A DNA stretch of 20,058 nucleotides. Origin: a virus. The notes under the pieces are model-generated. The model did not search any database, had not been told where the DNA came from, and saw nothing but the letters and a program-made list of their open reading frames with translations. Positions 2,600 through 17,848 of the stretch are shown in pieces. The stretch spans positions 1 to 20,058 of IMG/VR virus record IMGVR_UViG_3300032285_001287; one strand, given 5' to 3'. The translations under genes and the position numbers were made by a program. Numbering within the stretch: position 1 is the stretch's first letter; each line of letters opens with the position of its first letter.

Positions 2600-2926
2600 T
2601 TATACTCGGAAAGATTCGCCGCAACCACAGCGATCTTTTTCATTTGGATTAGTAAAATCAAATCCTTCATTGAGCCCATTGCGAACCCAATCTATAGTCA
2701 ATCCATCTAGATAGACTAGGCTTTTGGCATCTACTAACAAGACAAAATCCTGATGTCCGAAATTAGTTACTCCAACTTCTGCCTCATACTTGTCTACATA
2801 TTCAATAGTGTAGGCCAATCCGCTACATCCGGTAGTTTTAACGCCTACCCGAATTCCAACACCTTTGCCTCGTTTGGCTAAATTTTGTTTAATTTTAGCT
2901 TGGGCTGTGTCTGTTACGGTAATCAT
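2600..2926 (-). CDS. iscA: A-type iron-sulfur carrier (IscA-like)
   Basis: 108-aa protein, the usual length for IscA, with all three cluster-binding cysteines: Cys34 in TTGCSGLAY, and Cys100 and Cys102 in the C-terminal CGCGESF. A-type carriers receive iron or Fe-S clusters and deliver them to target proteins in the cytoplasm. The start overlaps the end of iscU by 32 bp and AAGG lies about 10 nt upstream, so the two are translationally linked. Phage-borne iron-sulfur assembly genes are known from marine viromes. Here the pair stands without iscS, hscA/B or ferredoxin in the window, so host partners would be needed. Specific client proteins are unknown. Confidence 0.93.
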   Translation of the reverse strand: MITVTDTAQAKIKQNLAKRGKGVGIRVGVKTTGCSGLAYTIEYVDKYEAEVGVTNFGHQDFVLLVDAKSLVYLDGLTIDWVRNGLNEGFDFTNPNEKDRCGCGESFRV

Positions 2927-3278
2927 CTATAGCCGCCTTGATGGCATCTTCTGCAAGTATTGAACAGTGGATCTTAACTGGTGGAAGCGCAAGCTCTTCA
3001 GCAATTTCGCTATTCTTAATCTCTGACGCGGCGTCAAGTGTTTTACCTTTAACCCATTCTGTGACCAGCGAGCTTGAAGCAATCGCACTACCGCAACCAT
3101 ATGTCTTGAATCTTGCATCTGTGATGATACCATCTTCTACCTTTATTTGTAGTTTCATTACATCGCCGCAAGCAGGAGCACCAACCATACCAGTACCAAT
3201 AGTAGGATCATCTTTTGGAAAAGATCCAACGTTTCTCGGGTTTTCGTAGTGGTCAATGACCTTATCTGAGTATGCCAT
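2895..3278 (-). CDS. iscU: Iron-sulfur cluster scaffold IscU
   Basis: 127-aa protein matching IscU over its full length (MAYSDKVIDHYENPRNVGSF at the N-terminus). The three cluster ligands are present: Cys37 in PACGD with the neighbouring Asp39, Cys62 in YGCGSAIASS and Cys105 in HCSILAEDA. The LPPVK loop (98-102) that the chaperone HscA recognises is intact, so the phage protein should plug into the host Isc machinery. IscU builds [2Fe-2S] and [4Fe-4S] clusters from sulfur supplied by IscS. The start follows the preceding stop by a single base and has no obvious ribosome site, suggesting coupling to the secreted-protein gene upstream. The C-terminus (DYRNRHSPS) overlaps iscA and differs from cellular IscU tails. 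Confidence 0.95.
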   Translation of the reverse strand: MAYSDKVIDHYENPRNVGSFPKDDPTIGTGMVGAPACGDVMKLQIKVEDGIITDARFKTYGCGSAIASSSLVTEWVKGKTLDAASEIKNSEIAEELALPPVKIHCSILAEDAIKAAIDDYRNRHSPS

Positions 3279-3937: not shown

Positions 3938-4201
3938 TTAGGTTCCACCTTCGCCAATAAAAACATCTTGGCTACCCGAACTAATTACAGATCCGTCCGA
4001 AAGTGCATCTGTTACACGGGCGGCTTTGTTGTTTTCAGATGTTACTGTGAGAGAACCCCTGGTGACTACTGCTCCACGTCCAGTTGCTGACGTTACATAT
4101 CCCAAAGGTTGGCTGTTGACAAACACCGTCTTTGATCCGGATGTTAGTAGATGCCCGTGTGCGGCATCTAAATTTACTCGAGCGGCTCCTAGTGCGGCCA
4201 T
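3938..4201 (-). CDS. PAAR-domain protein, baseplate spike tip (gp5.4-like)
   Basis: 87-aa protein with the PAAR pattern: AARVNLDAAHGHLLTSGSK, then VFVNSQPLGYVTSATGRG, and the closing SSGSQDVFIGEGG. PAAR proteins form the metal-bound cone at the very tip of contractile tail spikes (gp5.4 in T4) and help pierce the host envelope. The His at residue 15 in AHGHLLTSG is a candidate zinc ligand. The length is normal for a stand-alone PAAR protein with no effector extension. Its start shares a base with the preceding stop (TAATG at 4203-4199), so it is translationally coupled to the 244-aa gene, which may be a virion partner. Transcription is likely from the late element at 4958-4964. Confidence 0.87.
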   Translation of the reverse strand: MAALGAARVNLDAAHGHLLTSGSKTVFVNSQPLGYVTSATGRGAVVTRGSLTVTSENNKAARVTDALSDGSVISSGSQDVFIGEGGT

Positions 4202-9790: not shown

Positions 9791-11695
9791 TTATACCGAA
9801 GTAACTACACTATAAGTTAAGTAACCGGTATCGCTAGGCACGGTATTGGTATAATTTATAATAATGGATCCCGGAAGTTGACCCGGTGCCCCAGTGAATG
9901 CCGCGCCAGTGGTGTCTAGAAATGTCGCACTAAAATCAAGTCCAAGTGCTTTGGCTTCAGAAACGTCAGCGCCAGCAAATTCAAACTCGTCTGCTAATTG
10001 AACTTTGGCATTGTCAATGTCGGATGCGATTTTGATAATGCCTTCTCTAGTAAATGAGTTGGTATTGCTTTTATAAAAATATTTTATATTAAAATTAATA
10101 GAATATTGGCTAAGTCCTGTTGCTCCTGTAGACACAGGCAGTGCAAAAGCAAATGTTTTATTAGTAGTAACAGGTCCGATTAAAATTGATTTCAAACCCT
10201 GGAGGTCATATGTTGCATGCCCACCAACTTCTGCAACATATGGTGTTGATAAACTAGAATTTGAACCTAAATCAGTTGGCCTATCAGAGTATAGATTTAT
10301 ACAACTGTTCCCGGCAGATCCAAACCATATTTGTGGATAACGGACTCCTGCGGCATTGCCTGCACCGTCACAGCCAACATTGTCTAGCTTACAATCTTTA
10401 ACAGTATTGTTGTTTCCCAATCCAATATAGATGGCCTGTTTCTTTATGTTATAAAATTTTGAATTACTAATCAATACTTGTCTAGGTCCGTATAGTCTAC
10501 CAACAGTAGTGCCATCGCCTCCTAACAAATAAAATCCATAGTTACTGTTCTCTACTAGGCAGTCTGAAAATGTGTTATCACGAATATCATACTGTGTATA
10601 GGTAGCATAGGTGAAACCTTCAAACTGTAAATTTTTAAATAGATTCTTTTCACAAGTTACTAGTGAACTAAAAGATGAAAATTTGATCCCGATGCTTTGT
10701 GGTCTAATTACAAGATTGTAATTGCCTTTAAAAGAAATATTTTCAAAGATACTGTTTCTTACAGCATCTAAACTCATACCAGTATTCGCACCAGTCGTTG
10801 TCTCAATAGTCAACCCGCTCATGCTAATATATCGAGGTTGGTTAGTTGATAATGTGGTACCGATTACACTAGGATGACCGATAGTTGAAGTGTCATTTAC
10901 AAACCTAATTGCTGGAGTATCTGATACTATTGAAAAACTTTGATTGGTCAGCGCAGAACTTACAGTAGCAGACATTGAAAGACTTACACCTGGTGTAACA
11001 GATATCACAGTTGCAGTTGAATTGATACCGTTTCCAATAACCACTGACCCAATCATGTCAGCAGTAGCTTGACTAGTATACATGATATATGATCCGTTTG
11101 CCACACTTCCAGTTATAGTAACTGTTGGATTATAACTAATTTTGGTTTTTTCAATGCCAGCACCTTGTATAGTTGCATAGCTGGGAATATACAATGGTTT
11201 TTTAGTAACATATACACCAGGTGGCATGTAAAGCACTACTCTTTTTGTAGTACCTGCACTGGTATTTGCATTAGCTGGGGTAGTAGTGTTTAAAAATAAT
11301 TGATCAATTGCTCGTTGTAGTGCAACTGAGTCATCAGTAGAACCATCACCTTTAGCATCAAAGTCTTTTACTGATACAGTATCTTCTAAACGTACCTGTA
11401 GTAATCTTGATGTAGGATTATTAGCATCTTGCCCAGTGACCACTGTAACGTCATTGGACTTGTAGATATAACTAATAACATTAAGGATATTGCCCTGAGA
11501 ACTTAGGTCATTAACTGTTAGGATTTTTGTATTGCCAACGCCCGGACTGCCCTCGCTAACTGCACCGTTACCTATGTAAAGTTCTTGAGAGTCAATGGCC
11601 CATGCTAATTCACCACTAGCTAACTGAGGCAACCCTGTTCCTGAGCCAATTTGCCCGCGACGTACTTGAATTCTGCTTATTTGAACGACAGCCAT
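9791..11695 (-). CDS. Tail fibre/tailspike with Mtd-like N-terminus and beta-helix
   Basis: 634-aa protein. Residues 1-50 (VQISRIQVRRGQ, LASGELAWAIDSQELYIGNG) match the virion-anchoring N-terminus seen in major tropism determinant and hyaluronidase-like phage proteins. Residues about 105-190 carry the pectate-lyase-superfamily signature (VSVKDFDAKGDGSTDDSVAL, then VVLYMPPGVYVTKKPLYIPS and the TIQGAG turn), followed by many short strands with Asn/Ser/Gly turns up to about residue 480, a right-handed beta-helix. The C-terminal 150 residues look like a separate tip domain. Such proteins bind or cleave host surface polysaccharide. A good ribosome site (GAGGA at 8 nt) and a late element at 11717-11723 fit virion expression. 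The catalytic residues cannot be assigned. Confidence 0.87.
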   Translation of the reverse strand: MAVVQISRIQVRRGQIGSGTGLPQLASGELAWAIDSQELYIGNGAVSEGSPGVGNTKILTVNDLSSQGNILNVISYIYKSNDVTVVTGQDANNPTSRLLQVRLEDTVSVKDFDAKGDGSTDDSVALQRAIDQLFLNTTTPANANTSAGTTKRVVLYMPPGVYVTKKPLYIPSYATIQGAGIEKTKISYNPTVTITGSVANGSYIMYTSQATADMIGSVVIGNGINSTATVISVTPGVSLSMSATVSSALTNQSFSIVSDTPAIRFVNDTSTIGHPSVIGTTLSTNQPRYISMSGLTIETTTGANTGMSLDAVRNSIFENISFKGNYNLVIRPQSIGIKFSSFSSLVTCEKNLFKNLQFEGFTYATYTQYDIRDNTFSDCLVENSNYGFYLLGGDGTTVGRLYGPRQVLISNSKFYNIKKQAIYIGLGNNNTVKDCKLDNVGCDGAGNAAGVRYPQIWFGSAGNSCINLYSDRPTDLGSNSSLSTPYVAEVGGHATYDLQGLKSILIGPVTTNKTFAFALPVSTGATGLSQYSINFNIKYFYKSNTNSFTREGIIKIASDIDNAKVQLADEFEFAGADVSEAKALGLDFSATFLDTTGAAFTGAPGQLPGSIIINYTNTVPSDTGYLTYSVVTSV

Positions 11696-12821: not shown

Positions 12822-13871
12822 TTAGTTTTTTTTTGAAGATGCTAGTAAAATGCCTAGTCTACGGCTGTAGTCAATTGATTCTCTTTTTTCGCGACTAGCC
12901 TCTGGTGCTGGTGGTGTGCCTGCTTCAGCGCCTGGTTCTTCGCCTGGCATTGGTTCTTCGCCTGGCATTGGTTCTTCGCCTGGCATTGGTTCTGTTGGAG
13001 GTAAAGCACCTGCTTCTGGACCTGCGCCCATCATAGGAGCTTGTTGTCCTGATACAACTGCTAGGCCTGTGCTAAGTCCTTGACGACTTGATTCTAATGC
13101 TGTGTAAATTGCCTCTAGTGCTGGCTTAACAGCTTGTTCATATTTCTGAGCAACGTCACTGCCCTGATTTTCTCTTATAGAGTCTAATAATTCTAATAGT
13201 TGCTCTGCTTTCATTTGAGCAACGTCTTCGAGCCAACTTGTAATTTGATCAACCATATCTTTAGTTGACATGATGTTATGTGCTTTATCTTCTTCGCCTT
13301 CTGCTAGATATACGATGTGACGTGCTACATTTTCTTTTAAATCATAACGTGTGGTTAATTCAGCCTTTAGTTCTTCTTGATCTGATTCGCCTACTGTGAT
13401 GCGATTGATAGCTGATTCGATCCAACTTGATGGAACGCTGTGTTGTTCGGCTTTTTTACGTAGTAATGATGTATATGTGTCCATGCTTTCAGTTTTCTTT
13501 TTAGTTTTGCCGCCCTTTTGGTCTTTGCCTAAACGGCCAGCAACAACATCTCCACGTGTTACTTTGTCGTATGGAGGATAATTGTTAGCTAGGTTGCCGT
13601 CGCCCTTGCCTTCACTCATTTCACGCTCTAGGATCTCTTGATTAATTACATCAAGAAACAATTTTGTCTTTTGATAGTCTGGACTTTCATGCATTGCATC
13701 GAAGCTTTCCTCTAGTTCAAACTGACTAATCTTAGTGCGTAGTTTGTTGCGAGCATCTTCTAGCTGTGCGTCGTTAAACTGTTCAAGTTTGATTTGATAG
13801 CCAAAGGTCTTAGCTAGGCTTTCGTTAAGCTGTTTAGCTGTAATTGGCTTTGATAATTCTCTAATTTGCAT
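12822..13871 (-). CDS. Putative virion/scaffold-like protein with Pro-Glu repeats (349 aa)
   Basis: 349-aa hydrophilic, mostly helical protein starting MQIRELSKPITAKQLNE, with ribosome site AGGAAG at 5 nt. Residues 1-85 and 190-270 are charged helices. Residues about 285-330 are Pro/Glu/Gly-rich and contain three copies of EPMPGE. The end (RRLGILLASSKKN) is basic. No catalytic motif. Strong acidity, helices and a low-complexity tail recall scaffold or internal head proteins, but the family is not recognised. The first residues, M-Q-I-R-E, match a tag shared with neighbouring proteins. It lies behind a perfect late element (13898-13905), so expression with virion genes is likely. Confidence 0.75.
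   Translation of the reverse strand: MQIRELSKPITAKQLNESLAKTFGYQIKLEQFNDAQLEDARNKLRTKISQFELEESFDAMHESPDYQKTKLFLDVINQEILEREMSEGKGDGNLANNYPPYDKVTRGDVVAGRLGKDQKGGKTKKKTESMDTYTSLLRKKAEQHSVPSSWIESAINRITVGESDQEELKAELTTRYDLKENVARHIVYLAEGEEDKAHNIMSTKDMVDQITSWLEDVAQMKAEQLLELLDSIRENQGSDVAQKYEQAVKPALEAIYTALESSRQGLSTGLAVVSGQQAPMMGAGPEAGALPPTEPMPGEEPMPGEEPMPGEEPGAEAGTPPAPEASREKRESIDYSRRLGILLASSKKN
12943..12993. repeat. 18-bp tandem repeat in coding sequence
   Basis: CCTGGCATTGGTTCTTCG occurs at 12943-12960 and 12961-12978, with a partial third copy at 12979-12993. Each unit encodes one EPMPGE hexapeptide. Perfect identity between copies suggests recent slippage and probable length variation among relatives. 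Confidence 0.85.
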
Positions 13872-13897
13872 GATGGCTTCCTAAGCGTTCTATATCG

Positions 13898-13905
13898 TAT
13901 TTATA
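13898..13905 (-). promoter_or_regulatory. Perfect T4-type late promoter (TATAAATA)
   Basis: All eight late-consensus bases on the minus strand, 26 bp before the start at 13871. The TAA within it (13903-13901) is also the stop codon of the preceding gene. Confidence 0.7.
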
Positions 13906-14389
13906 CAAAACTCCACTTAAACATTGTGGAAATTTTATCCTTATAGTATCCAGCTAGAAAGTCGCTGTGTTCTAATCGGGTCAACAATATCAAGTATCGA
14001 TTGTACTCTTTGGCGGTTTTAATGTTATTTCTAAAGACCAGCGAGTCACAAAAGTTTGCCCAGTACTTGTTGTCTAGGTCTTTGATTTCAAAAAACTTTT
14101 CTAAATTAGCATTAGCGTATGCTTTTGCGGCCATTAGCGCACAGGTTTTTAAATAAAACTGATCGATAATGTCCCTGCTCTTGAGATTATAAACACCCCA
14201 ATTACCAGTTTTGATTTCTTTAACTAAAAAGTCTTTGTAAACAATACTACCGTTTGGTTGTACAGCCAGGGGCATTTTTTTGTTTAGCTCTACTTCAAAA
14301 TGCTGGGCAAGTTCACCAATTACTTTAGGTTGAACTCCGGGCTTTTTAGCAGAAGTCTTTTTAGGTTTTGATTTAGAATGTTTTTTCAT
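13901..14389 (-). CDS. Hypothetical protein (162 aa)
   Basis: 162-aa protein with a very basic N-terminus (KKHSKSKPKKTSAKK, residues 2-16) followed by a compact mixed domain: VYKDFLVKEIKTGNWGVYNL (about 49-68), helical ALMAAKAYANANLEKF, and a Leu/Tyr-rich helical end. The basic tail suggests contact with DNA or RNA. The ATG at 14389 overlaps the preceding gene by 17 bp and has no clear ribosome site, so translation is probably coupled; a TTG two codons upstream is possible. No motif identifies a family. Similar uncharacterised proteins occur near nucleotidyltransferase and virion genes in marine myoviruses, to my recollection. Confidence 0.7.
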   Translation of the reverse strand: MKKHSKSKPKKTSAKKPGVQPKVIGELAQHFEVELNKKMPLAVQPNGSIVYKDFLVKEIKTGNWGVYNLKSRDIIDQFYLKTCALMAAKAYANANLEKFFEIKDLDNKYWANFCDSLVFRNNIKTAKEYNRYLILLTRLEHSDFLAGYYKDKISTMFKWSFV

Positions 14390-14579
14390 TTGCAACTACA
14401 GTCGGATCTTTGTGTCCTACTTTAGTTACCAGACTTTTGCGAATCAAGGCCTGAACTTTGAATTGATCTTGTTCGTCAAGGTGAGCTAGCTTCATAGGCT
14501 TCTCTAACTTCTTTAAAAGTTTAGCCTCTTCGTTGGTCATCCAAATATGGAATTCACCTACTAGCTCGTTGATTTTCAT
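14373..14579 (-). CDS. Small hypothetical protein (68 aa)
   Basis: 68-aa charged helical protein beginning MKINELVGEFHIWMTNEEAK, with a segment (QDQFKVQALIRKSLVTKVG) that could form a small helix-turn-helix, although I cannot confirm one. It starts in an ATGA overlap with the preceding gene and ends inside the next, so it belongs to a tightly coupled gene string. Its first five residues, M-K-I-N-E, are identical to those of the adjacent 273-aa protein. Function unknown. Confidence 0.7.
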   Translation of the reverse strand: MKINELVGEFHIWMTNEEAKLLKKLEKPMKLAHLDEQDQFKVQALIRKSLVTKVGHKDPTVVANEKTF

Positions 14580-15397
14580 TTTAGACCAGCAATAGTTAGC
14601 ATTTTGTAAAGAGGATCATTTTCGTTAAATGTACTCTTTACTGGATCACGTTGTGCTCTAGTAAATTTCTTGTCTATTAATTGGTTGATTAGCGCATCAG
14701 TTTTGTCGCCACCATCTGGTCCACCGATGTCGTGATTTTCTGGGTTAGCCACAAGATCCGGGTCAGCTTCTTCTAGACCTACATAGTCTAGTCCTCTGCT
14801 AATTACTCCGTGCTGTTGCAGGTATTCGGGGCTATAGGCCTTGTCACCAAATACACCTAACATACGTGTTAATAATGCTGGATTATTTTTGGCCATATTA
14901 GCTTCCCATTCTTTTGGGGGAAGTTGTGGAATTGCTCCGCCTGTTGCACTCTTAGGAACTTGTCCAGATTTTACAGCATCCATACGTGCTTGTATTTGTG
15001 CTTTTTCCCAAGGCTCGCGAGCCTGTTGCATCATTTGAGTTAAAGCATTAATATACTGTGCAGGAAGGTCGCCACCTGCCGTCGGTTCTTCTGTTTGCAT
15101 AGTATTAGGAGTAGAACCCATAGTTTGACCAGGCTGGCCAGCATTGGATTGATTCATTGCTATTTTAGAATAAGATCCATCTGGGTTCACTTGTATTTGA
15201 TTTTGATTTACAATTTCGCCTGTGCCTGTTTGAGGATTGCCGATGGTTACTGTACCTTTGCTAGTGTCCTGGCCAATGATCTGCTGTTGCTGTCCAGTAG
15301 GTGCGTTAGTAGTGCCACTTGGGCCAGGTAGTGGTTTAAGTGGGGCGCCAGTCTTAAACTGAATTGGTTGTTGTCCGGTAACTTCGTTGATTTTCAT
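14576..15397 (-). CDS. Gln/Gly/Pro-rich putative virion protein (273 aa)
   Basis: 273-aa protein starting MKINEVTGQQPIQFK. Residues 10-110 are low-complexity, rich in Gln, Gly, Pro, Thr and Asn and probably disordered. Residues 112-170 are helical (QYINALTQMMQQAREPWEKA), and the C-terminal third has charged helices ending DPLYKMLTIAGLK. The start is well supported: GAGGA 6-7 nt upstream and a TAATG junction with the nucleotidyltransferase gene. No enzymatic motif. It has the M-K-I-N-E start shared with the 68-aa neighbour. A structural or packaged-protein role is inferred from composition and context only. Confidence 0.75.
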   Translation of the reverse strand: MKINEVTGQQPIQFKTGAPLKPLPGPSGTTNAPTGQQQQIIGQDTSKGTVTIGNPQTGTGEIVNQNQIQVNPDGSYSKIAMNQSNAGQPGQTMGSTPNTMQTEEPTAGGDLPAQYINALTQMMQQAREPWEKAQIQARMDAVKSGQVPKSATGGAIPQLPPKEWEANMAKNNPALLTRMLGVFGDKAYSPEYLQQHGVISRGLDYVGLEEADPDLVANPENHDIGGPDGGDKTDALINQLIDKKFTRAQRDPVKSTFNENDPLYKMLTIAGLK

Positions 15398-16086
15398 TAT
15401 TCTTCCTCAAGGCTTAATTTAGCACTTTCTAATTTGTTAATGTATTTACGCAATTTGTCTATCTGCCCTCTAGCTCTGAGTAACTTGAACGCTAGATTTT
15501 CTACACTAGATTCGCCATTAGATTCTAGGCCAGCTTTGCGTAGTCTACGCAATTCTTCCATAGTACCTTTGGCACGATCTAAGTTATCACTGCGCAGAGC
15601 TTGGTTAATTTTACCAGCGTAGTTACGGGCTTTACTCTTAATGTCTTTGGGATCTACCTTAGGTTGTTCAGCACTGGGCTCACTGATCCAGCGATTGTAT
15701 TTTACACTATAGATTCCGGCTGAGTGATGTGTTTGTTTGCTGTCCTGCACATATAGTTCTACTGGGATATCATTTATAGTAATATCATAGGTGCTGTTGT
15801 ATTGATTCTTTTTAGCTGAAAATAGTTCTTCCTGTGCATCTGCATTTTTTACTATGAGATGAAGATCGAGATCGGAGTACTGCGAATAGTTGTAGCCAGC
15901 GTTGCTACCACTAACAGTGATATCTTCTATTTGTAAATTAGGAACGTTTAGGAATTCTTGAAAGTGATCTGCTATTTGTAGCAGTTTACGACGTACTTCG
16001 GGAATTAAAATGCGATCATCCCAGAGATTGGGATTAAGTGTTTTGTGATGTACAACAGGATCGATTGATAGTTCTTGAAATTGCAT
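15397..16086 (-). CDS. Nucleotidyltransferase-fold protein
   Basis: 229-aa protein with the polymerase-beta-type nucleotidyltransferase signature: VSGSNAGYNYSQYSDLDLHL at residues 58-77, giving Gly60-Ser61 and metal-binding Asp72 and Asp74, with Glu110 (IPVELYV) as a plausible third acid. The C-terminal 80 residues are a long charged helix or coiled coil ending KLSLEEE. Enzymes of this fold add nucleotides to proteins, RNA or small molecules, and the target here is unknown. Marine T4-like phages commonly carry such proteins among virion genes. The start MQFQEL resembles the M-K-I-N-E tag of the next genes. The ATG lies four bases after a TTAAATA element and has no ribosome site. Confidence 0.82.
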   Translation of the reverse strand: MQFQELSIDPVVHHKTLNPNLWDDRILIPEVRRKLLQIADHFQEFLNVPNLQIEDITVSGSNAGYNYSQYSDLDLHLIVKNADAQEELFSAKKNQYNSTYDITINDIPVELYVQDSKQTHHSAGIYSVKYNRWISEPSAEQPKVDPKDIKSKARNYAGKINQALRSDNLDRAKGTMEELRRLRKAGLESNGESSVENLAFKLLRARGQIDKLRKYINKLESAKLSLEEE

Positions 16087-16090
16087 TCAG

Positions 16091-16097
16091 TATTTAA
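16091..16097 (-). promoter_or_regulatory. Late-like element (TTAAATA) abutting a start codon
   Basis: Minus-strand CAGTTAAATACT, with TTAAATA at 16097-16091 and the ATG beginning at 16086. The same 12-mer with identical spacing precedes the ATG at 16909. Flanking ATTCAGT/ACTGAAT (16085-16091 and 16097-16103) are inverted copies. Confidence 0.45.
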
Positions 16098-16102
16098 CTG
16101 AA

Positions 16103-16402
16103 TTACAGGCCAATCAACTTAATTAGATCTTTGATACTTGAAGTTTGTAGCCAACCTGCGCCTGCGGCAAATGCCAATGCAATCATACCGTATCGCATCC
16201 ATTTGTCTTTAACTGTTTGGAGATCTTTAACTTTGCCAGCTAGCTCATTGTGTTGGCTAGTAGACTCATCGCGCATTGTTTTGAGAGTATCGATTATAGA
16301 TGTATGGTTAGCAGTAATGTCTTGTTTAACATCATCCAGCTTTTCATTAAAATTATCTACTTTAGTTTCTAGTACGCTTACACGCTCTGCTACAGTTGCC
16401 AT
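16103..16402 (-). CDS. Coiled-coil protein with C-terminal membrane helix (XhlA-like)
   Basis: 99-aa protein starting MATVAERVSVLETKVDNFNE; the ATG has GGAG 9 nt upstream. Residues 4-65 are heptad-like and highly charged, then a membrane helix follows at about 74-88 (MIALAFAAGAGWL) and a short tail. The layout and the opening VAERVSVLETKV resemble the XhlA/haemolysin-XhlA family, which assists phage lysis in Bacillus. An alternative is a small structural or membrane-docking protein. It is far from the SleB-type hydrolase, so any lysis role is uncertain. The late element at 16502-16508 lies about 100 bp upstream, giving a long leader in the 102-bp gap (16403-16504). Confidence 0.72.
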   Translation of the reverse strand: MATVAERVSVLETKVDNFNEKLDDVKQDITANHTSIIDTLKTMRDESTSQHNELAGKVKDLQTVKDKWMRYGMIALAFAAGAGWLQTSSIKDLIKLIGL

Positions 16403-17578: not shown

Positions 17579-17848
17579 CTAAATCATGCCGTTATCTGGA
17601 TTTTTTGATTCTTGTATGCGTTTAATACCACGCTTGTACTTGGTTGCGTCGCCTGCTTTGATACTGTTGATAAACCTGCGCTCTAGTTCGGCGGCGGTTT
17701 CGATATCATAGTTTTCTCGTATCAATTCTAACAAATTGATAGCACTTTGTATAATGTTAGAGCCTCGACTTTCTAAAACTAGCTCAGTGTCTCGGCTTAG
17801 ACTAACATCCGTTAGCCCTTGTAATATTGAGCGGGTGCTTTTACGCAT
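17579..17848 (-). CDS. Conserved phage protein of unknown function (89 aa)
   Basis: 89-aa charged, helical protein: MRKSTRSILQGLTDVSLSRD, then VLESRGSNIIQSAINLLELI, ELERRFINSIKAGDATKYKRGIKRI and a short tail. I associate this pattern with a small conserved protein of marine T4-like phages that has no known role. It is a single-gene unit: a TTGATT-N17-TATAAT promoter 30 bp upstream and a terminator 18 bp after the stop, so it is likely early. The ribosome site (AGAAAG) is modest. No catalytic or DNA-binding motif is certain, although the basic second half could bind nucleic acid. Confidence 0.8.
   Translation of the reverse strand: MRKSTRSILQGLTDVSLSRDTELVLESRGSNIIQSAINLLELIRENYDIETAAELERRFINSIKAGDATKYKRGIKRIQESKNPDNGMI

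Follow-up and report, generated by a model that had tools for sequence, protein, structure and literature searches.

Why do four neighbouring phage genes, whose products are otherwise unrelated, begin with nearly the same short peptide? The question is raised by the IMG/VR record IMGVR_UViG_3300032285_001287, which consists solely of a viral fragment of 20,058 bases (the window below) in which 33 genes were called. Four open reading frames (ORFs) with the starts MQFQEL, MKINEV, MKINEL and MQIREL are neighbours on the minus strand; the last two are separated by a single gene that has no such leader (Table 1). A preliminary description proposed that these proteins are carried into the capsid and trimmed by a T4-type prohead protease after the I-x-E of the leader, at residue 5, and that one of them is a nucleotidyltransferase. 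The four ORFs exist as described, and their bodies fall in four separate clusters, in agreement with the reported lack of similarity outside the leader. We consider this leader to be, with fair probability, a variant, specific to this lineage, of T4's capsid-targeting sequence (CTS); it would bring late proteins into the particle, most likely through docking at the prohead core.

Table 1. Positions of the leader-bearing genes and associated features (in the window unless another source is named)
Feature	Position	Strand	Basis
Nucleotidyltransferase-fold protein, 229 aa, leader MQFQEL, active-site motif GSNAGYNYSQYSDLDLH	15397..16086	-	ORF, profile, model
Leader codons MQFQEL	16069..16086	-	Residue/codon comparison
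Pro/Gln-rich protein, 273 aa, leader MKINEV	14576..15397	-	ORF
Leader codons MKINEV	15380..15397	-	ORF
68-aa protein, leader MKINEL, weak winged-helix resemblance	14373..14579	-	Alignment, model
Leader codons MKINEL	14562..14579	-	K2, E5, L6 invariant in 20/20 distinct sequences; synonymous changes in codons 5 and 6
Intervening leaderless gene (MKKHSKSK...)	13901..14395	-	ORF and related loci
Virion protein, 349 aa, leader MQIREL	12822..13871	-	phrog_14154 virion structural protein, E 2.2e-7
Leader codons MQIREL	13854..13871	-	Conserved in 19/19 distinct sequences, with I/L at 3 and L/F at 6
Leu15-Asn16-Glu17 followed by Ser, candidate prohead-protease site	13821..13829	-	Invariant L15, N16, E17
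TATAAATA, T4-type late promoter element	13898..13905	-	26 nt upstream of the MQIREL gene
Second-class leader examples (contig G003)	28467-29267 and 162221-163849		
Molly_1 small proteins with the local N-terminus	13131, 17676, 17921, 49762, 97898		

A total of 37 related loci was found in viral contigs, and in many of them the four families keep both their order and their N-termini. The assigned start sites are supported by these homologues, each family retaining the same ATG and the same N-terminus across the related loci. In the family of the 68-aa MKINEL protein, M1, K2 and E5 are invariant, and the leader stays at the extreme N-terminus even though the 0-18 residues directly after it are inserted or lost. 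The counterparts of the MQIREL protein start with MQIRDL in five further loci; the genes at the MKINEV position start with MKINEVT, MKVKQVVGE, MKIKDILGE or MKIKDIVEH in the relatives; and in the nucleotidyltransferase family residues 2-3 are variable, with E5 present in 20 of 20 distinct sequences. Codons 3, 5 and 6 vary synonymously (ATC/ATT/ATA, GAA/GAG and five Leu codons) while the residues are retained, indicating that selection acts on the peptide. The shared start is a conserved peptide located at a free N-terminus. The same codon variation largely refutes the idea that the conserved start is a nucleic-acid signal, either a translation start context or the site of a regulator, an extremely improbable explanation for which one could cite the overlap of the shared string with the start codon and the position of the nucleotidyltransferase start within a conserved inverted repeat.

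Among the 33 genes of the window, the strict motif M[KQ][IF]xE was seen 4 times against about 0.05 expected under position independence (Poisson P(>=4) about 3e-7, to be read with the caveat that the motif was picked after being seen). Three of the related loci sit in long contigs, G001 (266 kb), G002 (191 kb) and G003 (356 kb), which were retrieved whole, and the motif was enriched there as well. The strict form was observed 3, 2 and 3 times against 0.54, 0.30 and 0.58 expected, while a wider core motif, M-(K/R/N/Q)-hydrophobic-x-(E/D)-hydrophobic, reached 11, 9 and 19 occurrences where column shuffles gave 2.3, 1.1 and 2.2, 4-9 times above expectation. These shuffles keep the composition, and chance or composition was thereby rejected as the source of the motif. 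Compared outside the leader, the 43 core-motif carriers of the window and the three contigs form 24 clusters; a tail lysozyme with LysM, a GH19 hydrolase, an M23 peptidase and a cytidyltransferase are among the carriers. The leader sits on many unrelated bodies, i.e. it behaves as a portable element. The core motif was not enriched in T4, P-SSM4, HTVC008M, Molly_1 or CBB (5 observed against 2.8 expected in CBB), and was only slightly above the shuffles in S-CRM01 (5 genes), Syn33 (2) and S-CREM2 (2), so that it is mainly a property of the lineage to which the window belongs.

The nature of this lineage is indicated by G003, which encodes a gp21-type protease (Peptidase_S77, PF03420, E 6.5e-27) and a gp23-type capsid protein, 68-72% identical to those of the Rak2/GAP32/CBB-type jumbo myoviruses (Mimasvirus) and of Sinorhizobium phage Phosso. 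From its synteny with G003 and the capsid and protease genes of that contig, and not from a capsid gene of its own, the source of the window was placed most likely as a jumbo T4-like myovirus. The gene order around gp292-gp303 of CBB partly matches the window, with homologues of window genes 17579-17848 (gp292) and 12822-13871 (gp298), and then an exonuclease and NrdA, following in the same order. A search of 20 related records for gp21 and gp23 found both in G003 only; likewise, tblastn with the head proteins of G003 gave no match in G001, G002 or the related loci, contigs too incomplete to reveal the protease.

Do the leader-bearing proteins enter the particle? The homologue of the nucleotidyltransferase in cyanophage S-CREM2 (OR473000.1) is ORF156 (126012-126725; 35% identity, E 7e-33), for which 6 unique peptides were reported in the proteome of CsCl-purified virions under the name of hypothetical protein (PMC10665884, Table 3). 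The same virion list includes the products of the two genes just upstream, ORF155 and the cytidylyltransferase ORF154 (PMC10665884). The homologue of the MQIREL protein in phage CBB is gp298 (profile E 7.6e-8; best match in the CBB proteome), of which 10 peptides were found in virions (PMC5259590, Table 4); gp292 was also detected, by one peptide (PMC5259590). Since ORF156 and CBB_298 are present in purified virions, the nucleotidyltransferase and MQIREL families, two of the four, are virion proteins at the family level. For the counterparts of the other two the line of evidence is weaker, depending partly on position and annotation. GAP32_290, at the place of the 273-aa MKINEV protein, and GAP32_291, the counterpart of CBB gp296, are both annotated as virion structural proteins, and a search of the CBB proteome with the 68-aa protein ranks gp296 first (E 0.013; hhalign E 2e-4). 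CBB gp296 (GAP32_291) is thus probably the counterpart of the 68-aa protein, an assignment that rests on this weak profile match and on position because the 68-aa protein gave no tblastn match in the phage collection or the genome contigs. Profile searches did not link the 273-aa, 162-aa and 107-aa neighbours to CBB gp295 (the CBB counterpart of GAP32_290), gp297 and gp299.

S-CREM2 allows the same question to be put to whole sets of genes. Its homologues of core-motif carriers (ORF156, ORF154, ORF137 and ORF208) were all detected by mass spectrometry (MS), 4/4 against 9/31 of the other genes (p 0.014; small numbers). Starts of the T4 internal-protein type, taken as a control of the principle, were found in 5 of the 50 detected genes and in none of the 168 others (p 5e-4), any in-frame start near the 5' end being allowed in both groups alike, as the simple gene caller misplaces some starts and missed two MS-detected ORFs. 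Such T4-type leaders are carried by the S-adenosylmethionine (SAM) hydrolase ORF6 (MKDFDSFLEE), the APH-like kinase ORF14 (MKRFDAFLTE) and the cytidylyltransferase ORF154 (MKNFSSFLTE). The authors of that proteome suggest that these enzymes lie within the capsid and do not mention the leader (PMC10665884). An orthologue of the cytidylyltransferase, T4-GC190, is a virion protein of S-SM1 (PMC3037559), and its copy in Syn33 starts with MKKFSAFLTE|A. These results suggest that virion cargo can be listed by its leader in S-CREM2, where the T4-type leader picked MS-detected virion proteins only. The cyanophage proteins (S-CREM2 ORF6, 14, 154 and 156; S-SM1 T4-GC190) resemble those of the window as enzymes detected in purified virions, but ORF6, 14 and 154 carry leaders of the T4 internal-protein type, in other hosts and another phage family, and ORF156 starts with MKKLISELK. 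The MS-detected 'CRISPR-Cas9 nuclease' ORF12 of S-CREM2 (loci L150-L158) has RFASFMAEA near its annotated start.

Studies of the T4 CTS have dealt with three small internal proteins. In its sequence, MKTYQEFIAE, the targeting residues are 4 and 7 (PMC9026906). As in IPII and IPIII of T4 (MKTYQEFIAE|A), the leader of the window is a free N-terminal peptide common to unrelated proteins, and has a hydrophobic pair spaced i, i+3 around Glu, here I3 and L6 around residue 5 (E/D in most members). Both systems have T4-type late genes, and a gp21-type protease and gp23 are encoded in G003, a long contig syntenic with the window. They differ in that the motif of the window lies one residue earlier, is carried by far more bodies and, in most of the window proteins, has no (L/I)-x-E cut at its end; targeting in the window is predicted from sequence.

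Is the leader removed, and where? The gp21 protease of T4 cleaves after (L/I)-x-E (PMC9026906), a rule that the I-x-E of the leader fits, and both the protease and its motif were found in G003, where the predicted cut of gp23 is LLE|S. The propeptide of T4 Alt, given as 7 residues only (PMC9026906), also speaks for so early a cut. Nevertheless, many orthologues have D or Q as residue 5 (MQIRDL, MKVSDL, MKVKQVVGE, MKIKDILGE), Asp at P1 blocked the processing of the T4 CTS in mutants (PMC9026906), and residue 3 of the nucleotidyltransferases is often F, V, L or A. In addition, T4 gp24 starts with MAKINELLRE|S, its removed propeptide of 10 residues retaining KINEL and being cut at LRE (PMC9958956). 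Cleavage directly after residue 5 is therefore very unlikely, and this part of the preliminary description was rejected. The KINEL of the gp24 propeptide is identical to that of the window MKINEL protein, and gp21 removes the propeptide from a head protein; gp24 itself is a vertex protein of the shell.

In G001-G003, the (L/I)xE site with A, G, S, N or D as the next residue has two peaks, one at residues 9-10 (12 and 11 proteins; background 3.1 per position) and the other at residues 15-17 (7, 9 and 11 proteins). This site goes together with the leader (13/33 against 82/876, p 8e-6), as in MKVKEILTE|G, MRATEFITE|G, MRVIDILNE|S and MNFRELINKLDHINE|A. Among the four proteins of the window, only the MQIREL protein has a conserved downstream candidate site, LNE at residues 15-17; all 19 sequences compared keep these three residues, with S or N next. 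A second class of leader, MNFxELxxKIxxIDE|G/A, with its (L/I)xE site at residue 15, was noticed in G001-G003 (Table 1).

The sites after the leader also bear on the proposal that the leader docks its proteins to the tail, the baseplate or another part, so that they are virion-associated but not in the head. Cell-wall hydrolase activity is frequent in phage tails, three leader-bearing proteins of G003 are cell-wall hydrolases, and the leader cluster of the window lies near tail fibre-like genes (9791-11695). We regard this destination as rather unlikely, as gp21-type sites follow many of the leaders at residues 9-10 and 15-17, similar starts in T4, those of gp24 and the internal proteins, belong to head proteins, and the S-CREM2 enzymes with T4-type leaders are proposed by their authors to lie within the capsid (PMC10665884). 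The hydrolases belong to locus L080 of G003 (332020-335350), where four adjacent genes carry MRFTEF/MRAKDF/MRAKEF leaders.

Promoters of the late type also speak for the CTS-like reading. A late-like element was present within 60 nt upstream of 9/40 leader carriers against 66/961 other genes (p 0.002), and the MQIREL gene is preceded by TATAAATA, at a distance of about 26-34 nt, in the window as in 18/18 homologous loci examined. By the CTS-like mechanism that we favour, the short leader would dock phage proteins made late in infection to the prohead core and so carry them into the particle, as the CTS does for the internal proteins of T4. Cleavage of the gp21 type would be likely only in proteins with a downstream (L/I)-x-E site, such as the MQIREL protein with LNE|S at residue 17, and the remaining proteins may keep the leader or be cut elsewhere. 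What stands of the original capsid-delivery proposal is the portable leader, the presence of homologues of two of the four proteins in virions and the protease of G003; docking at the prohead core, a place in the head and delivery into the host are inferred. A bolder possibility, which we put forward tentatively, is that one class of leader loads perhaps 10-20 unrelated cargo proteins per genome, among them an injected nucleotidyltransferase that would modify host protein or RNA, much as T4 delivers the ADP-ribosyltransferase Alt at infection.

Several observations weigh against a CTS-like role. The most important is that the nearest counterparts, in CBB and GAP32, whose virion status is annotated or measured, lack this leader (CBB gp298 starts with MSKQFSKMMES and gp296 with MRSVDTKN), indicating that it is unnecessary for virion association in that lineage. 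The published proteomics is at the level of the virion, giving neither placement in the head nor N-termini. The window fragment contains no capsid or protease gene, both being taken from G003, and the three large contigs are interrelated, so that their enrichments are not fully independent. Moreover, orthologue alignments of the other three window families revealed no conserved downstream (L/I)-x-E site, and some relatives of the nucleotidyltransferase lack the strict motif (MYAQETQSEF, MNALEF). The leaderless counterparts, together with a general excess of Lys as second residue and of Ile close to the start in G001-G003, could be taken to mean that the similarity stems from shared ancestry or N-terminal composition with no targeting role. 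This is improbable, given that column shuffles produce far fewer cases, that the bodies are unrelated and that the leader stays in place despite insertions and deletions in the linker behind it.

Should such leaders prove to mark cargo in T4-like and jumbo phages alike, injected proteins could be listed directly from sequence, including host-takeover enzymes, anti-defence proteins and cell-wall enzymes. For the T4-like phages of open sea and lakes the CTS is hardly mentioned; in the literature searched, the CTS term occurred together with cyanophages in one review only. A 'hypothetical' protein already seen in virions, S-CREM2 ORF156, gains an identity as a nucleotidyltransferase.

This identity was established on the MQFQEL protein, for which catalytic motif and modelled fold agree with the preliminary description. 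The family has the pol-beta-type motif hG[GS]x(9-13)DhDh and a third acidic residue; in the profile, G60, S61, D72 and D74 are nearly invariant and V109 and E110 invariant. Pfam matches were weak (NTP_transf_2, MTPAP-like). The AlphaFold model has a predicted local distance difference test (pLDDT) score of 87.6, with leader residues 1-4 below 50, and its palm region (residues ~17-140) aligns to minimal nucleotidyltransferases (NTases), AadA and CD-NTases with Z of 5.4-7.6. The best Foldseek match among NTase-fold structures has E 1.4e-5, and the CD-NTase, aminoglycoside adenylyltransferase and MNT antitoxin rows are within about 1 Z of each other, so that the assignment goes no further than the superfamily. 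Judging from the motif and the model, the enzyme is apparently catalytically intact. It was not found in CBB or Phosso in a search run without a positive control; this absence from CBB, and the lack of leader and of core-motif enrichment noted above, set Rak2/GAP32/CBB apart from the window.

The inverted repeat at the start of this gene, ATTCAGTTAAATACTGAAT (window 16085-16103, minus strand), ends in the start codon. Relatives have ATTCTGTTAAATACAGAAT or ATACTGTTAAATACAGTAT here, with changes in one arm matched by changes in the other and a TTAAATA resembling a late promoter between them, and the sole occurrence of the form with a 6-bp stem in G001 and G002 is at the nucleotidyltransferase start. 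In Maribacter phage Molly_1 (NC_062751.1, loci L136-L142), the nucleotidyltransferase homologue starts with MNLKTLVETDKSVDDIL, resembling one of the phage's own leader classes (examples are MKTTELKSLIES and MKTDLINLLES). At least 5 small proteins of Molly_1 have the N-terminus Kx(0-2)LIES/LVES/LLES followed by a helix of the Ser-Val-x-x-Ile type (Table 1). In unrelated phages, then, the nucleotidyltransferase seems to take on whichever leader is local.

For the 68-aa protein, the model has a pLDDT of 78.5 and matches to winged helix-turn-helix (wHTH) domains were weak. The MQIREL protein contains in its window copy, and in none of 18 aligned relatives, the segment GDGNLANNYPPYDKVTRGDVVAGRLGKD (13518-13622, minus strand), a small mobile segment 73-80% identical over about 30 residues to the cyanophage 'cytidyltransferase' Syn33_183. 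In-frame PMPGEE repeats are located at its C-terminal end (12916-13040, minus strand). Elsewhere on the minus strand of the window are a cell wall hydrolase (Hydrolase_2, E 4e-25) at 1432-2133, overlapping IscU-like and IscA-like iron-sulphur assembly genes at 2600-3278 and a PAAR-like spike-tip protein at 3938-4201, the latter two named by eye from the sequence.

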